A DNA stretch of 52,087 bases, from assembly GCA_027620015.1 (NCBI GenBank), contig JAQCGH010000010.1:1-52087 (forward strand), written 5' to 3'. Source of the stretch: Cyanobacteriota bacterium. Its GTDB lineage: Bacteria > Cyanobacteriota > Cyanobacteriia > PCC-6307 > Cyanobiaceae. The notes beneath the pieces are model-generated. The model made no database searches, had not been told where the DNA came from, and was given only the letters and a program-made list of their open reading frames with translations. Shown here piece by piece: positions 1 to 52,087 of the stretch (the stretch's first letter is position 1; each line of letters opens with the position of its first letter). The position numbers and the translations under genes were made by a program.

Positions 1-97
1 ATGTTGGTACTAAAGGCTCACCTCCAGCAAGCGGGGAAGCCCGCACCTCTTGATGGAATGCCGTGACACTTACCCACCCGCGTCCCGTTCCTGACGC
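1..97. other. left-edge stretch, unassigned, with a short hairpin
   Basis: No gene can be assigned here. A short open frame on the plus strand runs from base 1 to a TGA at 64-66 and could be the last 21 codons of a gene cut by the window edge, but I do not recognise it. A hairpin with a 5-bp GCGGG/CCCGC stem and GAAG loop lies at 31-44. It is not followed by a T-run, so it is not a standard terminator. A structured RNA end cannot be ruled out. Confidence 0.2.
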
Positions 98-1354
98 CTA
101 AGCAGCCAAAGCCTGGCCAGCCAGCCAGCCACTGCTCCAGCAGTGCTGAAAGTTAAACCCCCCCGTAACCCCATCCACATCCAAGAGTTCACCTACTAAA
201 TAAAGGCCTGGCTGCTGACGGCTCTCCATCGTCGCGAGGTTCACCTCACCAAGGGGAATTCCGCCCGCAGTCACGAATTCTTCGCCGAAAGGACCCCGCC
301 CAGTGATAGCCAGCCGGGTATCACGCAACGCCGCAACCAGTAGCTGCTGGTGCCGCTTGGCCAGATCGGCCCAGCGCTGCTGAGGGTCTAAGCCGTTGCG
401 CTGCAACAGGGCCAGCCAGAGGCGCCGGCTGAGAGTGGGCCACGGGCGCCAGTTGGCTAGTTGCCGCTTGGCCTGGTCTCGCTTGGCCTCGGCAAACAAG
501 CCCTCTAGCGCCTGCTGGGACAGCCCGCCACTCCAATCAAGGCGCAGCTCGCCCCGATAGCCACTGACCTTGAGGGCCCGGGCAGCAAAAGCCGTGAGCC
601 GCAGAGTGGCGGGACCTGAGAGACCCCAATGGGTTATTAAAACTGGGCCCCGTTGGCGAAAAGGCTGGGCAGCTCGAACGGCCTGAGGCTCTCGGGGCAG
701 GTGCAAAGCCAGCTCCACCGGATCCATCACCACTCCGGCCAGCTCAAGCAGGGGATCGCCAGCCAAGGCCAAAGTGAATAGGGACGGCACAGGCGGCACC
801 AGTCCATGGCCTAGACCCGCCGCCAGCTGACGGCCGCTGGGGTGGCTGCCAGTAGCAAGCACCAAACGATCAGCTCTGATCGCCCCACCACCGCGCAACA
901 ACAGGTCAAAACCACCTACAGCAGCTACCGCGGCCTGCTGCAGGCTCACCCCCGTATGAAGCTGCACACCAGCCTGTAGGGCAGCTCGGCGCAGGGTGGC
1001 TGCCACCGATTCGGAACGGTTTGAACGGGGAAACAGGCGGCCGTCCGACTCCTCCACTAGCTCAAGGCCATGGTCATCAAACCAGGCGACGGCATCGCTG
1101 GGAGCAAAGCGCGAAAAGGGGCCCCGCAGGGCCTGGCCGCCACGGGGGTAGTGCCCCACAAGGGCACGGGGATCCCAGCAGGCATGAGTGACATTGCAGC
1201 GCCCCCCGCCACTGATCAACACCTTGTGCAAAGGCTCAGAGGTGGCTTCCAGAAGTGCGATATCGCCAACGCCGGCCTCTGCAGCACTGATGGCAGCCAT
1301 GAAACCGGCGGCACCGCCACCGGCCACGACAACAGCAGCATGAATTGGCAGCAT
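98..1354 (-). CDS. NAD(P)/FAD-dependent oxidoreductase, HI0933 family
   Basis: Predicted cytosolic flavoprotein of about 418 residues from the HI0933-like (YhiN / aminoacetone oxidase-like) family; its physiological substrate is unknown. The N-terminus carries the dinucleotide-binding motif GGGAAG (residues 12-17), followed by the family motif LISGGGRCNVTH near residue 46. The C-terminus has the second FAD-contacting segment, GELLDVDGVTGGFNFQ. I start it at the ATG at 1354 because the Rossmann fold begins directly after it; longer upstream frames run through the divergent dus gene. The start lies only 6 bp from the start of that gene. Family assignment is solid, function is not. Confidence 0.85.
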   Translation of the reverse strand: MLPIHAAVVVAGGGAAGFMAAISAAEAGVGDIALLEATSEPLHKVLISGGGRCNVTHACWDPRALVGHYPRGGQALRGPFSRFAPSDAVAWFDDHGLELVEESDGRLFPRSNRSESVAATLRRAALQAGVQLHTGVSLQQAAVAAVGGFDLLLRGGGAIRADRLVLATGSHPSGRQLAAGLGHGLVPPVPSLFTLALAGDPLLELAGVVMDPVELALHLPREPQAVRAAQPFRQRGPVLITHWGLSGPATLRLTAFAARALKVSGYRGELRLDWSGGLSQQALEGLFAEAKRDQAKRQLANWRPWPTLSRRLWLALLQRNGLDPQQRWADLAKRHQQLLVAALRDTRLAITGRGPFGEEFVTAGGIPLGEVNLATMESRQQPGLYLVGELLDVDGVTGGFNFQHCWSSGWLAGQALAA

Positions 1355-4563: not shown

Positions 4564-6018
4564 TCAGCGAGCCAGCAATGCCTCTACAAACTCAAAGCTG
4601 TTGAAAGGCCGCAGGTCGCGAATGCCCTCACCAGCGCCGATGAAACGGATTGGTAGCCGGGCTTCGGAAGCGACGGCTAGGGCCACACCGCCGCGGGCAC
4701 TGCCATCGAGCTTCGTGAGCACCACGCCGGTTAGTCCAGCGGCCTTGGCAAAAGCCATGGCCTGACGCAGGCCGTTCTGGCCTTGGCTGGCATCAAGCAC
4801 CAAAAGCGACTCCACCACCGCCTCCGGAGCCAGCTTGTCAACAATCCTCCGCACTTTGCTGAGCTCCTCCATCAGGTTGTGCTTGGTCTGCAGGCGGCCA
4901 GCCGTATCAACGAGCACCAGCTCAGTGCCCTTGGCCTGGGCAGCACCGATTGCGTCATAGACGACGGCAGCTGGATCGGCATTGGCGCTGGGATTTGAGA
5001 TCACCGGCACATTGCTGCGCTCTCCCCACACCTGCACCTGCTGTACCGCCGCGGCTCGGAAGGTGTCAGCAGCAGCGATAAGGCAGCTGTAGCCGCTGCG
5101 CACCGCCAAATTCGCCAGCTTGCCAAGCGTGGTCGTCTTACCTACGCCGTTAACTCCCACCAACAACCACACGTTTAAATGTTCGCGTCGGGGGGCTAGC
5201 AGGGGCTGGCCACTGGCCTCAATCGGTTGATCGAGAATGAAGCGCAGCTGCTCCTTAAGGAAGCGCAGGCCCTCGGAAGGATCCACCACCTCCTGGTTAA
5301 GCCGTTGGCGAAGAGCGCCAAGAGCACGGTCGGTGGCTTCCACCCCAACGTCTGCACGCAGCAAGGTGGTTTCCAGACCATCGACCACCTCTGGCGTAAG
5401 CGGATCATCGCCAAGGTTGTCGAGCAGCTGGGTGACCAAGCCCTGGCGTGTTTTCTCAAGACCCTGACGCAAACGAGCGAGCCAGTCGATCTCCTCAAGC
5501 GAGACCTGATCAACCCGCTTGCCCTGGGCCGCAAGCACTTCAGCTGACCAGGTAAAGGTGGTGTCGAAAGCGCCCAGAATGGGCTCAGCCAGCTCTGCCG
5601 CTGCAGGGACTGCAAGGGCAGGGGCCTCCGGCGCCGTGATTGCCTGTTGGCGTTCTGCCCGCTGGGCCGCTGCCTGCTCCAGCAGAGAAAGGGGCCCCGT
5701 CTCTGAATTGGCGGGTTTATCAACCTGCTGAAGATCCTGCTCAAGTCTCTGTTCGGGCTGCTGTGTATTGATCTGCACAGGCTGTGCAGAATCCGAGGGA
5801 GATTCGGCCTCAAGCTTCAGCAGCTTTTGCTCCTCCTGCTGGGCCTTGAGGCGTGCGTAGGCCTGGCGCGCCCATTCCAGGGCCTCAGCGTTGGGATCAG
5901 GCGAAGTCTCAACAGACTGATCCGGAGACTGGTCAGAAGCCTTTTCCGAAGAGTCCGGCGGTGTTGCTGATGGGTCGGCTGGGGATGGCCCAGTGCGATT
6001 AAACCAGTCGTAAACCAT
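4564..6018 (-). CDS. ftsY: signal recognition particle receptor FtsY
   Basis: SRP receptor GTPase that docks ribosome-SRP complexes at the membrane for co-translational insertion. The C-terminal NG domain has the G1 loop GVNGVGKTTTLGKLA, then DTFRAAAVQQ, the G3 DTAGR, the G4 TKLDGSARGG and GEGIRDLRPF. About 170 N-terminal residues are rich in Gln, Glu, Ser and Pro, a low-complexity acidic A-domain as in many FtsY proteins. It ends 7 bp from nusB, which lies upstream in the same orientation, suggesting co-transcription. Confidence 0.95.
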   Translation of the reverse strand: MVYDWFNRTGPSPADPSATPPDSSEKASDQSPDQSVETSPDPNAEALEWARQAYARLKAQQEEQKLLKLEAESPSDSAQPVQINTQQPEQRLEQDLQQVDKPANSETGPLSLLEQAAAQRAERQQAITAPEAPALAVPAAAELAEPILGAFDTTFTWSAEVLAAQGKRVDQVSLEEIDWLARLRQGLEKTRQGLVTQLLDNLGDDPLTPEVVDGLETTLLRADVGVEATDRALGALRQRLNQEVVDPSEGLRFLKEQLRFILDQPIEASGQPLLAPRREHLNVWLLVGVNGVGKTTTLGKLANLAVRSGYSCLIAAADTFRAAAVQQVQVWGERSNVPVISNPSANADPAAVVYDAIGAAQAKGTELVLVDTAGRLQTKHNLMEELSKVRRIVDKLAPEAVVESLLVLDASQGQNGLRQAMAFAKAAGLTGVVLTKLDGSARGGVALAVASEARLPIRFIGAGEGIRDLRPFNSFEFVEALLAR

Positions 6019-6679: not shown

Positions 6680-7405
6680 TCAGGAAAGTTGGGGGGTGCG
6701 CAGCTGGGCCAGCAGGCTGGAGAAGCTGCGATTGGGGGTGGAGCGTTCGTCGGGGTTGACGATGCCAGCGGAAATGATTGTGCGGAAAGCATCCTCCACC
6801 GAAATCTCAAGATCCTTAACGGAACCCTCTGGCACAACTGTGTACCAGCCGGTGGTGGGATTCGGCGCGGTGGGAATGAACACACTCAGCATGGGCTCGG
6901 TGAAGCCTGCCTGCAGGGCAGAGCCGATAGCGCCAGTAACAAAACCCAGGGCATAGAGACCTTCGCGGGGATACTCCACGAGCACGACCCGACGAAACTT
7001 GCTGGAGTTGCCCTGGAGGAAAGTTTCCAGCAGCTGCTTGAGTGTTTTGTAGACCGAGCCAGCTAAGGGGATGCGCAGCAGGGTCCCTTCGCCAAACTCA
7101 AGTAACCAGCGACCAACAATGTTGCGGGCCATCAGGCCAATTAAAAGGATGCCCAGCAGGGGCACCAGTAGACCAACGCCCAGGTTGATCAGATCCTGCA
7201 ATACCGGATTGAGGGTATTAAAGGGATTGAACTGCTTAGGGATAGAGGTGAGAAACGCCAGCACGAAACGGCTCACCGTGGTGCCCAGCCAGATCGTGGT
7301 TGCCAGTGGAATCACCACCAGCAAACCAGCGATCAAATCGTTCTTGAGATCGGATTGGAGCCGATCCCCTAGGGGCTGATCCGATCTGGGTCTGGATTGA
7401 ACCAA
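6680..7405 (-). CDS. DUF502 family membrane protein
   Basis: Predicted inner-membrane protein of about 241 residues, function unknown. There are two hydrophobic segments near the N-terminus (around LIAGLLVVIPLATTIWLG and LINLGVGLLVPLLGILLIGL), then a soluble domain with IPLAGSVYKTLKQ and PTAPNPTTGWYTVVP, typical of DUF502. I choose the TTG at 7405 because homologues start with a short polar leader just before the first membrane segment; the frame also allows an earlier TTG at 7435. It lies 15 bp upstream of nusB in the same direction. Confidence 0.88.
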   Translation of the reverse strand: MVQSRPRSDQPLGDRLQSDLKNDLIAGLLVVIPLATTIWLGTTVSRFVLAFLTSIPKQFNPFNTLNPVLQDLINLGVGLLVPLLGILLIGLMARNIVGRWLLEFGEGTLLRIPLAGSVYKTLKQLLETFLQGNSSKFRRVVLVEYPREGLYALGFVTGAIGSALQAGFTEPMLSVFIPTAPNPTTGWYTVVPEGSVKDLEISVEDAFRTIISAGIVNPDERSTPNRSFSSLLAQLRTPQLS

Positions 7406-8180: not shown

Positions 8181-9128
8181 ATGACGCTGCACGCCCACCA
8201 CGACCTTGCACTCCGTTTAAAACAACAGGCCCAGCAGCTTGGGTTTGACCCAGTGGGCCTCGCCGCCGTGCCAGCCGGAGAGCGCCTAGGCCTGCGAACG
8301 GCAGCCCTGGAGCGATGGCTGGCAGCGGGCTATCAAGCCGACATGGCCTGGATGGCCGACCCGCGCCGGCGCGCGGTGGAGAAACTGCTGCCTGGGGTGC
8401 GCAGCCTGCTAGCGGTGGGCCTCAACTACTACGTGGAGGCCGATCGGGTACCGGGGGCACTCAAGGTGGCCCGCTACGGCTGGGGACGGGATTACCACCG
8501 AGTCATGGATGGCCGCTTGCGCAAGCTGGGACGGTGGTTGGAGCAGCAGGTGCCTGGGGTTAATTGGCGGGCCTGCGTCGACAGCGCCCCGCTCATGGAT
8601 AAGGCCTGGGCCGAGCAGGCGGGCCTGGGCTGGATTGGCAAAAACGGCAACCTGATCAATCGCGAGCGTGGCTCCTGGCTACTGCTGGGCCACCTGCTCA
8701 CAACCTTGGAGCTGCCTGCGGATGCTGCCGCCACATCCCTTTGTGGCAGCTGCAGCCGCTGCCTGCCGGCCTGTCCTACCGGCGCCATCAGCGAACCCTT
8801 CGTGGTTGACAGCCGCCGCTGCCTGGCCTTCCACACCATCGAAAACCGCGATCCCGAATTGCCGCAAGCGATCAGCAGCAAATTGGAGGGCTGGGTCGCC
8901 GGCTGCGACATTTGCCAGGACGTATGTCCCTGGAATCAACAGCCGCTGCGAAGCAGTGAGGATGCGGATCTGCAGCCCCGGCCCTGGCTGCTGAACCTGC
9001 AGGCCGAGGAAGCCCTGCGCTGGAGCGACGCCGACTGGGATACCAAGCTGCGAGCCTCGGCCCTGCGCCGACTCAAACCCTGGATGTGGCGGCGCAACCT
9101 GCGGGCCACCCGGAACGGCACTGCCTAG
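8181..9128 (+). CDS. queG: epoxyqueuosine reductase QueG
   Basis: Cobalamin- and Fe-S-dependent enzyme that reduces epoxyqueuosine to queuosine in the tRNA wobble position, the last step of queuosine synthesis. The N-terminal DUF1730 region contains DSAPLMDKAWAEQAGLGWIG. Two 4Fe-4S motifs follow: CGSCSRCLPACPTGAI and GCDICQDVCPWN. At 315 residues it lacks the long C-terminal extension of some homologues. It runs in the same direction as the TPR gene and gyrA. Confidence 0.94.
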   Translation: MTLHAHHDLALRLKQQAQQLGFDPVGLAAVPAGERLGLRTAALERWLAAGYQADMAWMADPRRRAVEKLLPGVRSLLAVGLNYYVEADRVPGALKVARYGWGRDYHRVMDGRLRKLGRWLEQQVPGVNWRACVDSAPLMDKAWAEQAGLGWIGKNGNLINRERGSWLLLGHLLTTLELPADAAATSLCGSCSRCLPACPTGAISEPFVVDSRRCLAFHTIENRDPELPQAISSKLEGWVAGCDICQDVCPWNQQPLRSSEDADLQPRPWLLNLQAEEALRWSDADWDTKLRASALRRLKPWMWRRNLRATRNGTA

Positions 9129-18855: not shown

Positions 18856-19914
18856 TTAGAAACCCATTACCTCTGCCACCTTGGCTGTGTCCGCTTCAAG
18901 GCCTGTATAAAAGCGAGAGTCATTGTTTTCAATGGCTGTGGTTGGATCCTTGAGGCCATTGCCGGTAAGCACGCAAACGACGGTTGCTCCTTGGGGGACC
19001 TCCTGGTGGTTTTTGAGTAAGCCTGCGACCGATGCGGCACTAGCTGGCTCGCAGAAAACACCCTCGCCGCTGCCTAGCAGCTTGTAGGCATCAATTATTT
19101 CAGCGTCTGTGACGGCCATGAATTTGCCACCACTTTCGCTTCGCACTTTCAGGGCCTTTTCACGATTCACCGGGTTACCTATGCGAATCGCCGTGGCGAT
19201 GGTGTCTGGTTGCTCAACCGTGTGTCCCAGCACCAAAGGAGCAGAACCAGCAGCTTGAAAGCCCATCATTCGGGGCAGCTTGCGGCAATGTCCCTCTTTC
19301 AAGTACTCGTTGAATCCCATCCAGTAGGCACTGATGTTGCCGGCGTTGCCAACTGGGATGCATAGCCAGTCCGGAGCTTCACCAAGGGCATCTACCACCT
19401 CGAATGCCGCCGTTTTTTGCCCCTGCAATCGGTAGGGGTTCACAGAATTCACCAGGGTTACCGGGTATTTGTTGGCTACCTCCTGAACTATCGCGAGCGC
19501 CCGATCGAAGTTTCCCTGAATAGCGATCACTTCGGCGCCGTAGAGCAGAGCTTGGGCAAGTTTTCCTTGGGCTACGTAGCCATCTGGAATCAGTACGAAG
19601 GCCCTCATGCCGCCGCGGCGGGCGTAGGCAGCAGCAGCAGCAGAGGTGTTGCCGGTGCTAGCGCAAATCACCGCTTCAGAACCCGCTTCCTTGGCTTTGG
19701 AAATTGCCATGGTCATGCCCCGGTCTTTAAAGGAGCCGGTGGGGTTGAGGCCGTCGTATTTCAGATAGACCTTCACGCCTCGGCCGATCCGCTCGGAGAT
19801 CACTGGGGCTGGAATCAGGGGTGTGGAACCCTCCCGTAGGGTTATTACAGGTGTTCGCTCTGAAACGGGGAGCCAGCGCCGATAAGCCTCGATCAGCCCA
19901 GGCCAGTCCTGCAT
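18856..19914 (-). CDS. thrC: threonine synthase
   Basis: PLP enzyme converting O-phosphohomoserine to threonine. The PLP lysine is K63 in [11 protein letters not shown], followed by [16 protein letters not shown] and [12 protein letters not shown], which bind phosphate and cofactor. The start at the ATG at 19914 gives 352 residues, the normal length; an in-frame GTG at 19974 would add 20 residues. It is transcribed toward the presumed origin. A location beside the dnaN origin is typical of picocyanobacteria. Confidence 0.95.
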
Positions 19915-48384: not shown

Positions 48385-50523
48385 TCAGGTCACCAAACCA
48401 CCGCGCCAGCGACTCATCATTTCCCGCTGAACCAGATGTTGTTCGCTTTCGAGCTGTCGTTGACTGAACTTTCCTTGGTTGTCCATGTGCCAAGCACTGG
48501 TGTCATTTAGGTAGAGATCGATGACCTGCTCAAGCTGATGGCGAAGTTTTGGATCTTCGATCGGGGCTACTGCCTCAATTCGTCTGTCCAGGTTTCGTGA
48601 CATCCAGTCAGCGCTGCCGAAGAAAAGTTCGGGCTCGCCGCCATTGCTAAACCAAAACAGTCGCGAATGTTCGAGGAAACGACCGATCACACTTACAACC
48701 TGGATGTTGTCACTGACGCCTTCCAGTTGGGGCCGCAGGCTGCACATGCCACGTACCACCAGATCGATTATGACGTCGGCTTGGGAGGCCTCGTAGAGCA
48801 AGGCGACGATCGCTGGATCGACCAGGGCATTCATCTTTGCCCGGATATGGCCGCCTCTGCCATCTTTTGCATGCTCGATTTCGCGGCGAATCAGGCCTTC
48901 CATTCGACTGCGCAGCGTCACCGGAGCCACCAGTAAGCGGCGGAAGCTTTGCTGCTTGGAGAAACCGGTGAGGTAGTTGAACAACTCCACTAGGTCGGCG
49001 CCGAACTCAGGCCTGGCCGTGAGTAGTCCGATATCGGTGTAGTGGCTTGAGGTTTTGGAGTTGTAATTACCCGTACCTATATGCACGTAGCTGTTGAGAC
49101 GGTCCTTCTCCTTGCGAACTACCAACAGGATTTTCGTGTGAGTTTTTAGGCCAAGCACGCCGTAGACGACGTGCACTCCAGAAGCCTCCAATTGCTTAGC
49201 CCACTGGATGTTGTTGTCCTCGTCGAAGCGGGCTTTTAATTCAACTAGTGCCATCACCTGCTTGCCGTTTTCGGCGGCTCTAATCAGCGCTGCCACCACC
49301 GGTGAGTTTTTAGAGGTGCGATATAGGGTCATTTTGATAGCCAATACCGAGGGGTCATCGGCGGCCTGGTTGAGGAATTCCTCTACAGATGTAGAAAACA
49401 GGTCGTAGGGGTGATGCAGCAGAACGTCTCCCCTGCGGATCACCGAGAAGATGCTTTCAAATTCCTCGGCCTTAATGGAGCCGTCTTCCAGTTGGCTCTT
49501 CTGGGTGCGGGCAAGGGCAGGAGTGGTGCGGCCTTTGTGGGGCTTCTCCTTCAGCTTGGGTAATGGAATAGCCAGCAGGCTCATTAGATCGTCGAGGCCT
49601 AGGGGGCCATTGACCCGGTAGATGTCTTCCGCTTCGACGGCGGTGCCCTCCATCAGCAGCTGCACCACTGCTTCCGGCATCTCATCGGCCACCTCCAGCC
49701 GCACCACCTCGCCGCCGCGTCGACGTTTTCGCAGACCCTCCTCTAGGGCCTCCATCAGATCGTCGGCCTCTAAGTCGCGCAATTCCAGGTCGGCGTCGCG
49801 GGTGACGCGGAAGAAGTAGTGCCCTTCAACGTGCATGCCTGGGAACAGCAGGCCGAGGTTGAAGGCCACCACCTGCTCTAGAGGCACGGCCGTGTAGACG
49901 GCTTCGGGTTGCTTGCCACTCAGATGGGTGGGGATCTGGACGAATCGGGGCAGGTTTTTCTGCGGCACCTTCACTCGGGCGAATTCCTGCTGACCCGTAT
50001 CGGGGTCTCGCACTAGGGCGGCCACGTTGAGACTCAGGTTGCTGATGAAGGGAAAGGGGTGGGAGGGATCCACCGCTAAGGGGGTGAGAACTGGGAAAAT
50101 GGCGCTCTGGAAGTAAGCGTTGAGCCAGTCCCGTTGGGATTCGTTGAGGTTGGCGTAGTCGGTGAGGTAGACCCCGTAGTCGAAGAGATGGTTCTTGAGG
50201 GAATGGCGGTAGTGCTGCTGCTGCATCTCCAGCAGGGGGCGTAGCTTGGTGCGGATCGCCTGAAGCTGTTGTTGGGCGGTGAGTCCGTCATCACTAAGAG
50301 TGCTCACCCCAGCATCGATTTGAGACTTCAGGGAGGCCACCCTCACCATGAAGAACTCATCGAGGTTGTTGCTGAAAATGGCGCTGAACTTCGCCTGCTC
50401 AAGTAGCGGAGTGTGCTCGTCTAAGGCTTGTGCCAGTACCCGATAGTTGAATTCCAGCCAACTCAGTTCGCGGTTGATATAAAGCTCAGGAGCTAGCTGG
50501 GTTTCAGCCGTTGATTTCGCCAT
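48385..50523 (-). CDS. ppk: polyphosphate kinase 1
   Basis: Reversible synthesis of inorganic polyphosphate from ATP, at the membrane, 712 residues. The N-terminus has INRELSWLEFNYRVLAQALD; the catalytic region has TLYRTSKNSPVVAALIRAAE, ELKARFDEDNNIQWAKQLE and the phosphorylated-histidine segment VHIGTGNYNSKTSSHYTDIG. The C-terminal domain includes DLVVRGMCSLRP and SADWMSRNLDRRIE. Full length. With pstS nearby it belongs to phosphate metabolism, but no Pho box is visible in its 48-bp upstream gap. Confidence 0.96.
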   Translation of the reverse strand: MAKSTAETQLAPELYINRELSWLEFNYRVLAQALDEHTPLLEQAKFSAIFSNNLDEFFMVRVASLKSQIDAGVSTLSDDGLTAQQQLQAIRTKLRPLLEMQQQHYRHSLKNHLFDYGVYLTDYANLNESQRDWLNAYFQSAIFPVLTPLAVDPSHPFPFISNLSLNVAALVRDPDTGQQEFARVKVPQKNLPRFVQIPTHLSGKQPEAVYTAVPLEQVVAFNLGLLFPGMHVEGHYFFRVTRDADLELRDLEADDLMEALEEGLRKRRRGGEVVRLEVADEMPEAVVQLLMEGTAVEAEDIYRVNGPLGLDDLMSLLAIPLPKLKEKPHKGRTTPALARTQKSQLEDGSIKAEEFESIFSVIRRGDVLLHHPYDLFSTSVEEFLNQAADDPSVLAIKMTLYRTSKNSPVVAALIRAAENGKQVMALVELKARFDEDNNIQWAKQLEASGVHVVYGVLGLKTHTKILLVVRKEKDRLNSYVHIGTGNYNSKTSSHYTDIGLLTARPEFGADLVELFNYLTGFSKQQSFRRLLVAPVTLRSRMEGLIRREIEHAKDGRGGHIRAKMNALVDPAIVALLYEASQADVIIDLVVRGMCSLRPQLEGVSDNIQVVSVIGRFLEHSRLFWFSNGGEPELFFGSADWMSRNLDRRIEAVAPIEDPKLRHQLEQVIDLYLNDTSAWHMDNQGKFSQRQLESEQHLVQREMMSRWRGGLVT

Positions 50524-50571: not shown

Positions 50572-51906
50572 TCAACCTTCTGATCCGTGTATCCGTGGTG
50601 TCATCTCAGAAGGTGGGTGAGTTGGCAGGCCACCGGCCACCAGTAGGGCCACCCCCACCAGCAAGGCGATTCCAAGCCAGAAGGGGCTCTGGCGCCCTGT
50701 GGTTTCGTAGGCCAGCCCCGCCAGCGGTGGGCCCAGGAAGCTGCCCAGGCTCTGTAGCCCCTGGAGGCTGCCCAGGGCAGCGCCCTGGCCTTCATTGTCG
50801 AGCCGGCGCGATACCAGGCTGCGCAGGCAGGGGGTGACCAGACCGGTGCCGAGGGCGAGGATCGCCACGGCACTGAATACCACTGGTTGGGCGTTTGCCC
50901 GGGTGGCCAGGGGAATCAGCAGGCAGCCGGCGATCACAAAGCCCAGTCCGGCCAAGGTGAGCCGCCATTCACCGAACTGCCTTACCAGCGGTCCGATTAG
51001 GCCGCCCTGCACCACAGTGGCCACCACGCCAACTACCAGGAAGGCAGCGGCGGCCAGGCCGGGCCCCCAGTTGAAGGCCTGCTTGAAATAGAGGACCAGC
51101 ACGGCGGTAAAGCCGTTGAAAGCAAGGAAAAACAGAAAAAATGCAATGCAAAGCCGCCGAACCTGGGGGTTGGTGAACACCCTTTGCAGGGCGACCAATG
51201 GGTTGAGATCTCGCTTTCGTGGCATGGCCCGGCGTGCTTCTGGCGGGTGGGTTTCTGGCAGCACGGTGAGCACCAGCACAAGGTTGAGCACGGCGATCGC
51301 TACGGCAACGAGCAGCGGCAGGGTGACGCTGATCTGGCCCAGCAGTCCGCCTAGGGCGGGGCCAAGAATGAAGCCCAGGCCAAATGCCACCCCGATCAGG
51401 CCGAAGGCCTTGGCCCGTTTTTCTGGCGGCGAGATGTCGGCTAGTACGGCGCTTGCTGTGGCGGCGGTGCCGCCGCTCACCCCATCAATTAATCGAGCCC
51501 CGAATAGCAGGAGCAGGGGCAACCCGGAGGCCTGGGCGGCGGGCCAGAGGTTGCCCCATGGCAGGCTGATGGTGAGGGCAAAAAGGGCCAGGCCCAGCAC
51601 CGAACCCCCCACACAAACGCTGATTACCGGTTTGCGGCCGTAGCGATCACTGAGGGCGCCGATCAGGGGCGTGAAGGCGAACTGGGCCAACGCGTAACTA
51701 CCCGCCAGTAGCCCCAGCACCCGGCCGTCGCTGGTGAAGCCCGCCAGCAGAAATGGCAGCAGCGGAAATACGATGCTTTCACCCAGCCGGTCGTTCAGCA
51801 GGGTGAGGAAGGCGCAGAGGAAGGTGGAGGGACGGGAGATGGTCAGGCGGCTGTGATTCCACACGTTATGGGGGGAGATGAAAATGATTTGCACCGGGCC
51901 ATCCAT
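50572..51906 (-). CDS. major facilitator superfamily transporter, TetA-like
   Basis: About 444 residues with twelve membrane helices. The MFS loop motif is GALSDRYGRKP, and the TetA/drug-efflux motif GPALGGLLG follows helix 5 (ISPPEKRAKAFGLIGVAFGL). It is likely a proton-driven exporter; the substrate is unknown. The start is taken at the ATG at 51906; the frame extends to 52047 but would run across the divergent gene. Only 36 bp separate the two starts. Confidence 0.85.
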   Translation of the reverse strand: MDGPVQIIFISPHNVWNHSRLTISRPSTFLCAFLTLLNDRLGESIVFPLLPFLLAGFTSDGRVLGLLAGSYALAQFAFTPLIGALSDRYGRKPVISVCVGGSVLGLALFALTISLPWGNLWPAAQASGLPLLLLFGARLIDGVSGGTAATASAVLADISPPEKRAKAFGLIGVAFGLGFILGPALGGLLGQISVTLPLLVAVAIAVLNLVLVLTVLPETHPPEARRAMPRKRDLNPLVALQRVFTNPQVRRLCIAFFLFFLAFNGFTAVLVLYFKQAFNWGPGLAAAAFLVVGVVATVVQGGLIGPLVRQFGEWRLTLAGLGFVIAGCLLIPLATRANAQPVVFSAVAILALGTGLVTPCLRSLVSRRLDNEGQGAALGSLQGLQSLGSFLGPPLAGLAYETTGRQSPFWLGIALLVGVALLVAGGLPTHPPSEMTPRIHGSEG

Positions 51907-51931
51907 GCTTGGGCCTGGCGCTCGGTTTGAG

Positions 51932-51936
51932 AAGGA
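51932..51936 (+). promoter_or_regulatory. Shine-Dalgarno site of the right-edge gene
   Basis: AAGGA lies 6 bases before the ATG at 51943, showing this frame is probably translated. Confidence 0.55.
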
Positions 51937-51942
51937 TGGGAG

Positions 51943-52087
51943 ATGACGGCATCCCAGTTGAGCCACCTCAATGCCACCGGCGAGGTGCACATGGTGGAGG
52001 TGGGCGATCGGCCCACCCCCGCCCATCCCTTGCTTCTGGTGGTGCATGGCCGTTCAGGCGGCCAGCTGCCTGAAGAGCTGGTAGCCC
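51943..52087 (+). CDS. moaC-like N-terminus joined to a CbiX-like sequence (partial)
   Basis: An open frame cut by the right edge after 48 codons. Residues 5-24 (QLSHLNATGEVHMVEVGDRP) clearly match the start of MoaC, the cyclic pyranopterin monophosphate synthase of molybdenum cofactor synthesis. The next residues should then read like VR.A.AEG, but instead they become HPLLLVVHGRSGGQLPEEL, which resembles the first strand of sirohydrochlorin cobaltochelatase (CbiX)-type proteins. No other frame continues MoaC. It may be a deletion fusion of moaC with its downstream neighbour, a true fusion protein or an assembly join. It is divergent from the MFS gene. Confidence 0.55.
   Translation, partial: MTASQLSHLNATGEVHMVEVGDRPTPAHPLLLVVHGRSGGQLPEELVA

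Follow-up and report, generated by a model that had tools for sequence, protein, structure and literature searches.

A moaC-cbiX join at a contig end as the probable scar of a lost nitrate cluster in a Cyanobium-type picocyanobacterium

Loss of nitrate use has been described in marine picocyanobacteria. Passages of one study report that marine Synechococcus MIT S9220 and RS9917 have lost the nitrate operon together with the genes for the molybdenum cofactor (Moco) (PMC7378029), and passages of another report that the nitrate/nitrite and molybdopterin cluster is wholly missing from two Synechococcus metagenome-assembled genomes of Station P, Syn-SP1 and Syn-SP2 (PMC10545762). For freshwater picocyanobacteria, selected passages describe the narB-nrtABCD-nirA neighbourhood of five strains (PMC10161378) and state that most genomes of the set under study encode narB and nirA (PMC11316352). 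The passages of the latter source and of PMC9716671 hold nothing on a join between moaC and cbiX, and no published description of one was found among titles, abstracts and selected passages. Here we describe such a join at the right end of contig C14 (JAQCGH010000010.1, Cyanobiaceae), a stretch of 52,087 nucleotides that was analysed as a whole and that we call the window. We argue that a real deletion of the nitrate/Moco gene cluster, carried by at least part of a strain-mixed population, probably left this join as its scar.

An open frame begins with ATG at 51943 and stays open to the end of the contig (51943–52086, no stop), where it reads MTASQLSHLNATGEVHMVEVGDRPTP/AHPLLLVVHGRSGGQLPEELVA; the last base of the contig is 52087. 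The first 24 codons (51943–52014, + strand) are a residual moaC, as judged by alignment to the relative G006 and by the adjoining MFS gene, which is placed as in other relatives. Residues 3–28 (51949–52026) aligned with the N-terminus of the G006 MoaC at 85% identity over 26 residues, which marks them as N-terminal MoaC sequence, and the DNA of 51948–52024 was 96% identical to G006 over 77 bases. The 48-amino-acid frame had no match above the cut-off to MoaC (PF01967), nor to any Pfam family at E ≤ 0.01. The window frame departs from MoaC after codon 24, and the catalytic residues of MoaC presumably lie beyond that codon.

The join falls at 52012–52015 (+ strand), at codon 24, and the codon phase is equal on both sides. 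Positions 52013–52087 (+ strand) matched C10, another contig of the same assembly, at 73 of 75 bases (C10:1942–2016, 97%, E = 2e-30), which places them within a cbiX open reading frame (ORF) from residue 226 of the 434 in the C10 copy until the contig end stops them. This side of the join is visible over 75 bases only, about 24 residues with no Pfam match, and the Pfam CbiX match begins 32 bases downstream of the join. The parents of the join have at most 2–3 bases in common, as judged by the moaC of relatives. The window tip and C10 differ at 52063 and 52084, where the window variants encode Q and A; the eight aligned relatives have Q (five), E (two) or G (one) at the former residue and A, without exception, at the latter. 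Because the residues at both differing bases are common in relatives, the cbiX piece looks like another natural allele rather than a C10 copy with errors, and a miscopied C10 piece is unlikely; the two contigs may come from different haplotypes. An intact moaC spoilt by a sequencing error was ruled out, since the bases past 52014 match a different gene of the assembly at 97% identity and no MoaC family was found elsewhere.

C10 itself carries nirA (NIR_SIR domains, truncated by the contig start), the cbiX ORF and a tetrapyrrole methylase gene of the cobA type; similarity to G006 places ureC at the other end of the contig. Some of these names are presumptive. In the cbiX ORF (434 amino acids) the CbiX domain (PF01903) occupies residues 237–323 (E = 5e-7, score 30.4 against a cut-off of 22). 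Pfam returned nothing in the N-terminal part, and a HEAT-like fold, which had been considered for it, is thus not claimed. A candidate name for the ORF is 'nirX', a word that occurs in two papers on the subject.

We searched for the order of moaC and cbiX in 60 genomes, our own (G000) included. In six of the eight other genomes that match both genes (G004, G005, G006, G012, G015, G033), the two lie on one contig, in the same strand and order, 16.4–26.0 kb apart; in the remaining two (G001, G007) they are on separate contigs. The stretch of G006 runs from the MFS gene (cut by the stretch) through dsbA, GGDEF, moaC, moeA, moaE, mogA, moaA, HPP and tauE to mobA, and from there through nrtP, narB, a phosphoribosyltransferase-like gene and nirA to cbiX and cobA; most of these names we presume from the sequences. 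Because moaC and cbiX border the cluster in relatives, the join connects two edges of the nitrate/Moco cluster, and the order in relatives rules out that the two genes are direct neighbours. An earlier note, made from the letters of the window alone, had read the frame as 24 MoaC codons that pass without a stop into CbiX-like sequence at about 52015, and the alignments to G006 and C10 bear out both the composition and the position. The same note had taken the CbiX-like part for the start of a chelatase-type protein and the chelatase-type gene for a neighbour of moaC in picocyanobacteria; neither holds, as the piece comes from the middle of its ORF, and 16–26 kb separate the two genes wherever both were found on one contig.

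The cluster itself appears to be largely missing from the assembly, which comprises 1,831,914 bases in 80 contigs and is 99.71% complete and 0.34% contaminated. No matches were found in it to MoaC, to the molybdopterin oxidoreductase family of NarB (PF00384) or to MoeA_N (PF03453), each of which was positive in 11 of 14 control genomes. The G006 cluster DNA (16.1 kb) recovered no more than four places in the assembly, two of them on C10 (nirA and cbiX); the others are the moaC stub and a small piece of C12. With narB and the Moco genes absent (moaA, moaE, mogA, mobA and nrtP at the DNA level only) and the flanks in the expected order, the assembly has the layout of cluster loss. nirA is present on C10, perhaps in the other haplotype, and this bears on whether the loss was complete, with no nirA left. 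The earlier note had proposed that moaC was deleted and that Moco and nitrate reductase went with it. The missing MoaC, MoeA_N and NarB families agree with that proposal, and no family match to another moaC or to narB turned up in the genome; the proposal needs to be widened, as the whole cluster is concerned and not moaC alone. It also needs to be narrowed from the strain to at least part of the population, since C10 holds nirA and a full-length cbiX.

Among 16 genomes of the genus, our own included, 10 had MoaC and 12 had PF00384; MoaC was found in 38 of the 60 relatives searched, again counting our own. Of the 11 genomes that are at least 90% complete and at most 5% contaminated, those without MoaC were G000, G008 and G014, and these were also the ones without PF00384. 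The other genomes without MoaC are 82–88% complete: G003 is without both families, and G009 and G010 have PF00384, in G010 only through weaker matches of a second type.

G014 and G008 (99% complete) offered a parallel, having neither a MoaC nor a PF00384 match. In both, the cluster is gone between GGDEF and cbiX, and cbiX-cobA adjoins GGDEF, dsbA, MFS and ppk. Their cbiX homology restarts at G006 coordinates 20114 (G014) and 20125 (G008), against 20155 in the window (all three being edges of BLAST alignments), which is 30–41 bases from the window join. The cbiX frames measure 266 (G014) and 258 (G008) codons from stop to stop, as against 439–531 in seven full-length frames. These genomes resemble the window in that the cluster was lost and the CbiX domain kept, with an in-frame loss of the part of the ORF that precedes it. 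They differ from it in having no moaC remnant (at E = 1e-3), in having the dsbA and GGDEF genes, and in retaining inter-gene stretches (G006 coordinates 5376–5722 and part of 7080–7370, plus a piece at 19400–19506); their loss was probably an event separate from that in the window. A tree of ppk grouped G000 with G012 (100/100) and G014 with G008 (99/99), one inner fork being unresolved. Because G012 groups with G000 yet has the cluster, two separate losses, in the lineages of G000 and of G014/G008, are the simplest account; gain of the cluster by exchange could also produce this distribution.

The same region marks an edge in another pair of relatives. G006 and G004 are 99–100% identical over some 8.6 kb that begin at nrtP (11.4 kb) and end in mid-cbiX at about 20.0 kb, and 71–84% identical thereafter (150-base bins, those at alignment ends left aside; loci L068/L069 of G006 against L079 and L080 of G004). 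Their moaA genes are 81% identical, and the neighbouring aligned blocks 81–92%. This contrast in identity shows a recent exchange of the nitrate block between the two. The edge of the exchange lies about 150–200 bases from the window join in G006 coordinates, and mid-cbiX is thus an edge of the exchanged nitrate block too, because the identity of G006 and G004 drops there.

We favour a deletion because order, strand, frame, domain edge, the G014/G008 breakpoints and the allele residues coincide, although we weighed these agreements only in retrospect and with no formal probability. Such a deletion would have removed moaC beyond codon 24, the genes up to and including nirA, and the half of the cbiX ORF that encodes the N-terminal part, a span of 16–26 kb in relatives. 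Moco synthesis, nitrate uptake, nitrate reduction and nirA would be lost with it, and the divergent MFS gene, 24 moaC codons and the CbiX domain in frame would be left. We infer that cells with the join exist and that they are without Moco and nitrate reductase. From pathway knowledge, the CbiX domain and cobA, which follows cbiX in relatives and on C10, are expected to remain needed for siroheme. The frame being kept, it is possible that the moaC start drives the chelatase domain in a predicted fused ORF, which would have 24 + 208 codons if it continues as on C10, the tail being taken from the other haplotype. More speculatively, the moaC start and its upstream signals may now express the CbiX domain together with cobA, to the benefit of siroheme synthesis.

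The deletion may also be real and the fused ORF either not expressed or not functional, an account that overlaps with the one we favour and does not exclude it, and to which we give a little less than an even chance. A scan of 51750–52087 for promoters and terminators returned nothing (sigma-70-like promoters: 0 found, 0.1 expected by chance), as would suit an inert scar; cyanobacterial promoters need not fit a sigma-70-like scan. A join also has a 1 in 3 chance of being in frame. Against inertness speak the kept frame and the retention of cobA and the CbiX domain in G014 and G008 after the loss, as if still needed. That the join is instead an artefact, in which a chimeric read or an assembler branch tied moaC to cbiX while the cluster was present and left unassembled or unbinned through strain differences, we regard as unlikely. 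A chance join would have had to hit the very gene that borders the cluster in relatives, with order, strand and frame all correct, and to fall both 30–41 bases from the G014/G008 restart and 32 bases before the CbiX match. The piece also looks like a distinct allele, and the MoaC, MoeA_N and NarB families are missing from an assembly that is 99.7% complete. A duplication, with one chromosome holding both the intact nirA-cbiX-cobA of C10 and a partial cbiX behind the moaC stub, is very improbable: the two pieces do occur in one assembly and differ at 2 of 75 bases, but a search of our genome with the window end found cbiX places on C14 and C10 only, and going by the gene order of relatives one would expect C10 immediately to the right of the window.

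Several observations weigh against a deletion, and some of them also favour an artefact. The join is close to the contig end (75 bases away) and not in the contig interior, and C10, with nirA and a full-length cbiX, means that a deletion is not the sole arrangement; as C10 starts inside nirA, some cells carry part of the cluster. The join was found in none of 15 other genus members (E ≤ 0.001), in none of 399 other family genomes (E ≤ 1e-8) and nowhere in the genome_contigs database, which may not include our own record and in which a CbiX-domain scan gave two loci only. Five of the cluster genes (moaA, moaE, mogA, mobA, nrtP) were sought with G006 DNA alone, and a search of our genome with the G012 DNA preceding nirA came back empty, that search having no positive control. 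The ppk tree, moreover, flagged the base make-up of G000 as unlike that of the others. Two further points concern contig ends. The left end of the window (1–156, + strand) has a second deletion-like join of similar kind, matching contig C38 in two parts, and five other tips (C7_L, C16_R, C13_R, C49_L, C75_L) show 75–79-base overlaps whose orientation is not accounted for by contigs simply adjoining one another. The latter may be repeats or chimeric tips, and because of these five we place slightly less weight on a deletion and more on an artefact.

At the left end, positions 1–98 correspond to C38:26569–26666 (1 mismatch) and 99–156 to the last 58 bases of C38, so that 4,173 bases are skipped. 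The skipped block begins near codon 13 of a pilB-like gene, provided that this gene starts at the GTG, and ends just past a pilC-like gene, and Pfam found T2SSE, T2SSE and T2SSF in this pilB-pilT-pilC-like block (L091 = C38:24000–30897). This join is possibly a second deletion polymorphism in the population, or else an artefact of the tip. That the skipped block is a functional unit fits strain differences, but it could also mean that the tips are unreliable.

The outermost 300 bases at each of the 160 contig ends were compared with end stretches of up to 3 kb, a longer stretch of C38 and the whole of C10, C12 and C14, together 27% of the assembly, so that matches to contig middles that were not fetched would escape. 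Another place was matched by 98 of the 160 tips (E ≤ 1e-8). End-to-end overlaps involved 67 tips, 52 of them at 94 to <100% identity, 10 exact and 5 below 94%, and 12 tips had exact overlaps of 69 or 70 bases. The overall pattern points to a mixture of strains and a k-mer size near 69, and two alleles and two arrangements are unsurprising because the tip overlaps fit mixed strains. Sixteen listed tip matches, some tips being listed more than once, were in contig interiors or in odd orientation; they comprise the two ends of C14, four exact joins of 69 bases that lead into interiors, one 54-base match and the five tips with 75–79-base overlaps.

Taken together, the losses and the exchange allow a broader reading, which we put forward only tentatively. 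Loss of the nitrate cluster in this genus might repeatedly end in mid-cbiX, selection might keep the CbiX domain and cobA for siroheme, and the N-terminal half, if linked to nitrite reduction, might go with nirA. In the window, on this same doubtful footing, the moaC start might have taken over the chelatase domain and so made a new fused gene, an allele that segregates in one population. Nitrate blocks might also be exchanged between species at nearly the same edge, as in G006 and G004; the conjunction of all these parts is rather less likely than not to be right.

The genes to the left of the join agree with the order in relatives. The MFS transporter gene (50572–51867, − strand; Pfam MFS_1, E = 3.5e-58) is divergent from moaC and adjoins moaC also in G012, G002, G013, G004 and G015. 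Next to it at the cluster flank is a gene that we take to be ppk (polyphosphate kinase; 48385–50523, − strand). Its homologue lies beside the MFS gene in G012, G014, G008, G002, G013, G004 and G015, and ppk is named as a flank of the nitrate cluster in passages of PMC6370341.

Two side observations concern the cluster and its remains. In G012 (L066 11278–13233), G004 (L080 1793–3694) and G015 (L081 11783–13732), the cluster includes, beyond moaA, a further molybdopterin oxidoreductase that shares about 25% identity with NarB. The C12 stretch (L078 8519–8864) consists of the last bases of mogA and an ORF of 71 amino acids (8648–8863), and is found behind a type III glutamine synthetase gene. 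The ORF had no family match; it resembles an ORF in the mogA-moaA spacer of G006 (88% DNA identity), and its homologue in G014 matched Nif11 below the threshold (E = 0.0097, 16.6 bits where the cut-off is 23.8).

If the deletion is real, the window holds a scar, resolved to single bases, where a Cyanobium-type picocyanobacterium lost its nitrate cluster, with two arrangements coexisting. Together with G014/G008 and G006/G004, it would mark mid-cbiX as an edge where the nitrate block is lost or exchanged, and it would suggest that cells without nitrite reduction can do without the N-terminal half of the cbiX ORF. Nitrate-cluster loss is already known from marine Synechococcus and Prochlorococcus; the present case adds a base-resolved scar and the convergent trimming to the CbiX domain. 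The likeness to MIT S9220 and RS9917 lies in the loss of nitrate and Moco genes, with cobA among the genes that flank the region; an in-frame moaC-cbiX join is not mentioned in passages of the source (PMC7378029). In contrast to the present case, these two strains are marine, and according to passages of PMC10545762 both are able to assimilate nitrite. The apparent deletion within the nitrate cluster of the Prochlorococcus LLI cell AG-311-K21 is similar in that the flanks, ppk and pyrG, are kept; as passages of the source have it, that deletion differs in that nirA and narB stay and the transporters and molybdopterin genes are removed, in a single-cell genome that is 46% complete (PMC6370341). 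Passages on the Station P populations describe a setting that is marine and iron-limited, and a loss that, unlike the window join, is backed by contig interiors and Nanopore reads; they also describe a likeness in population structure, a minority that retains the whole pathway or part of it (PMC10545762).
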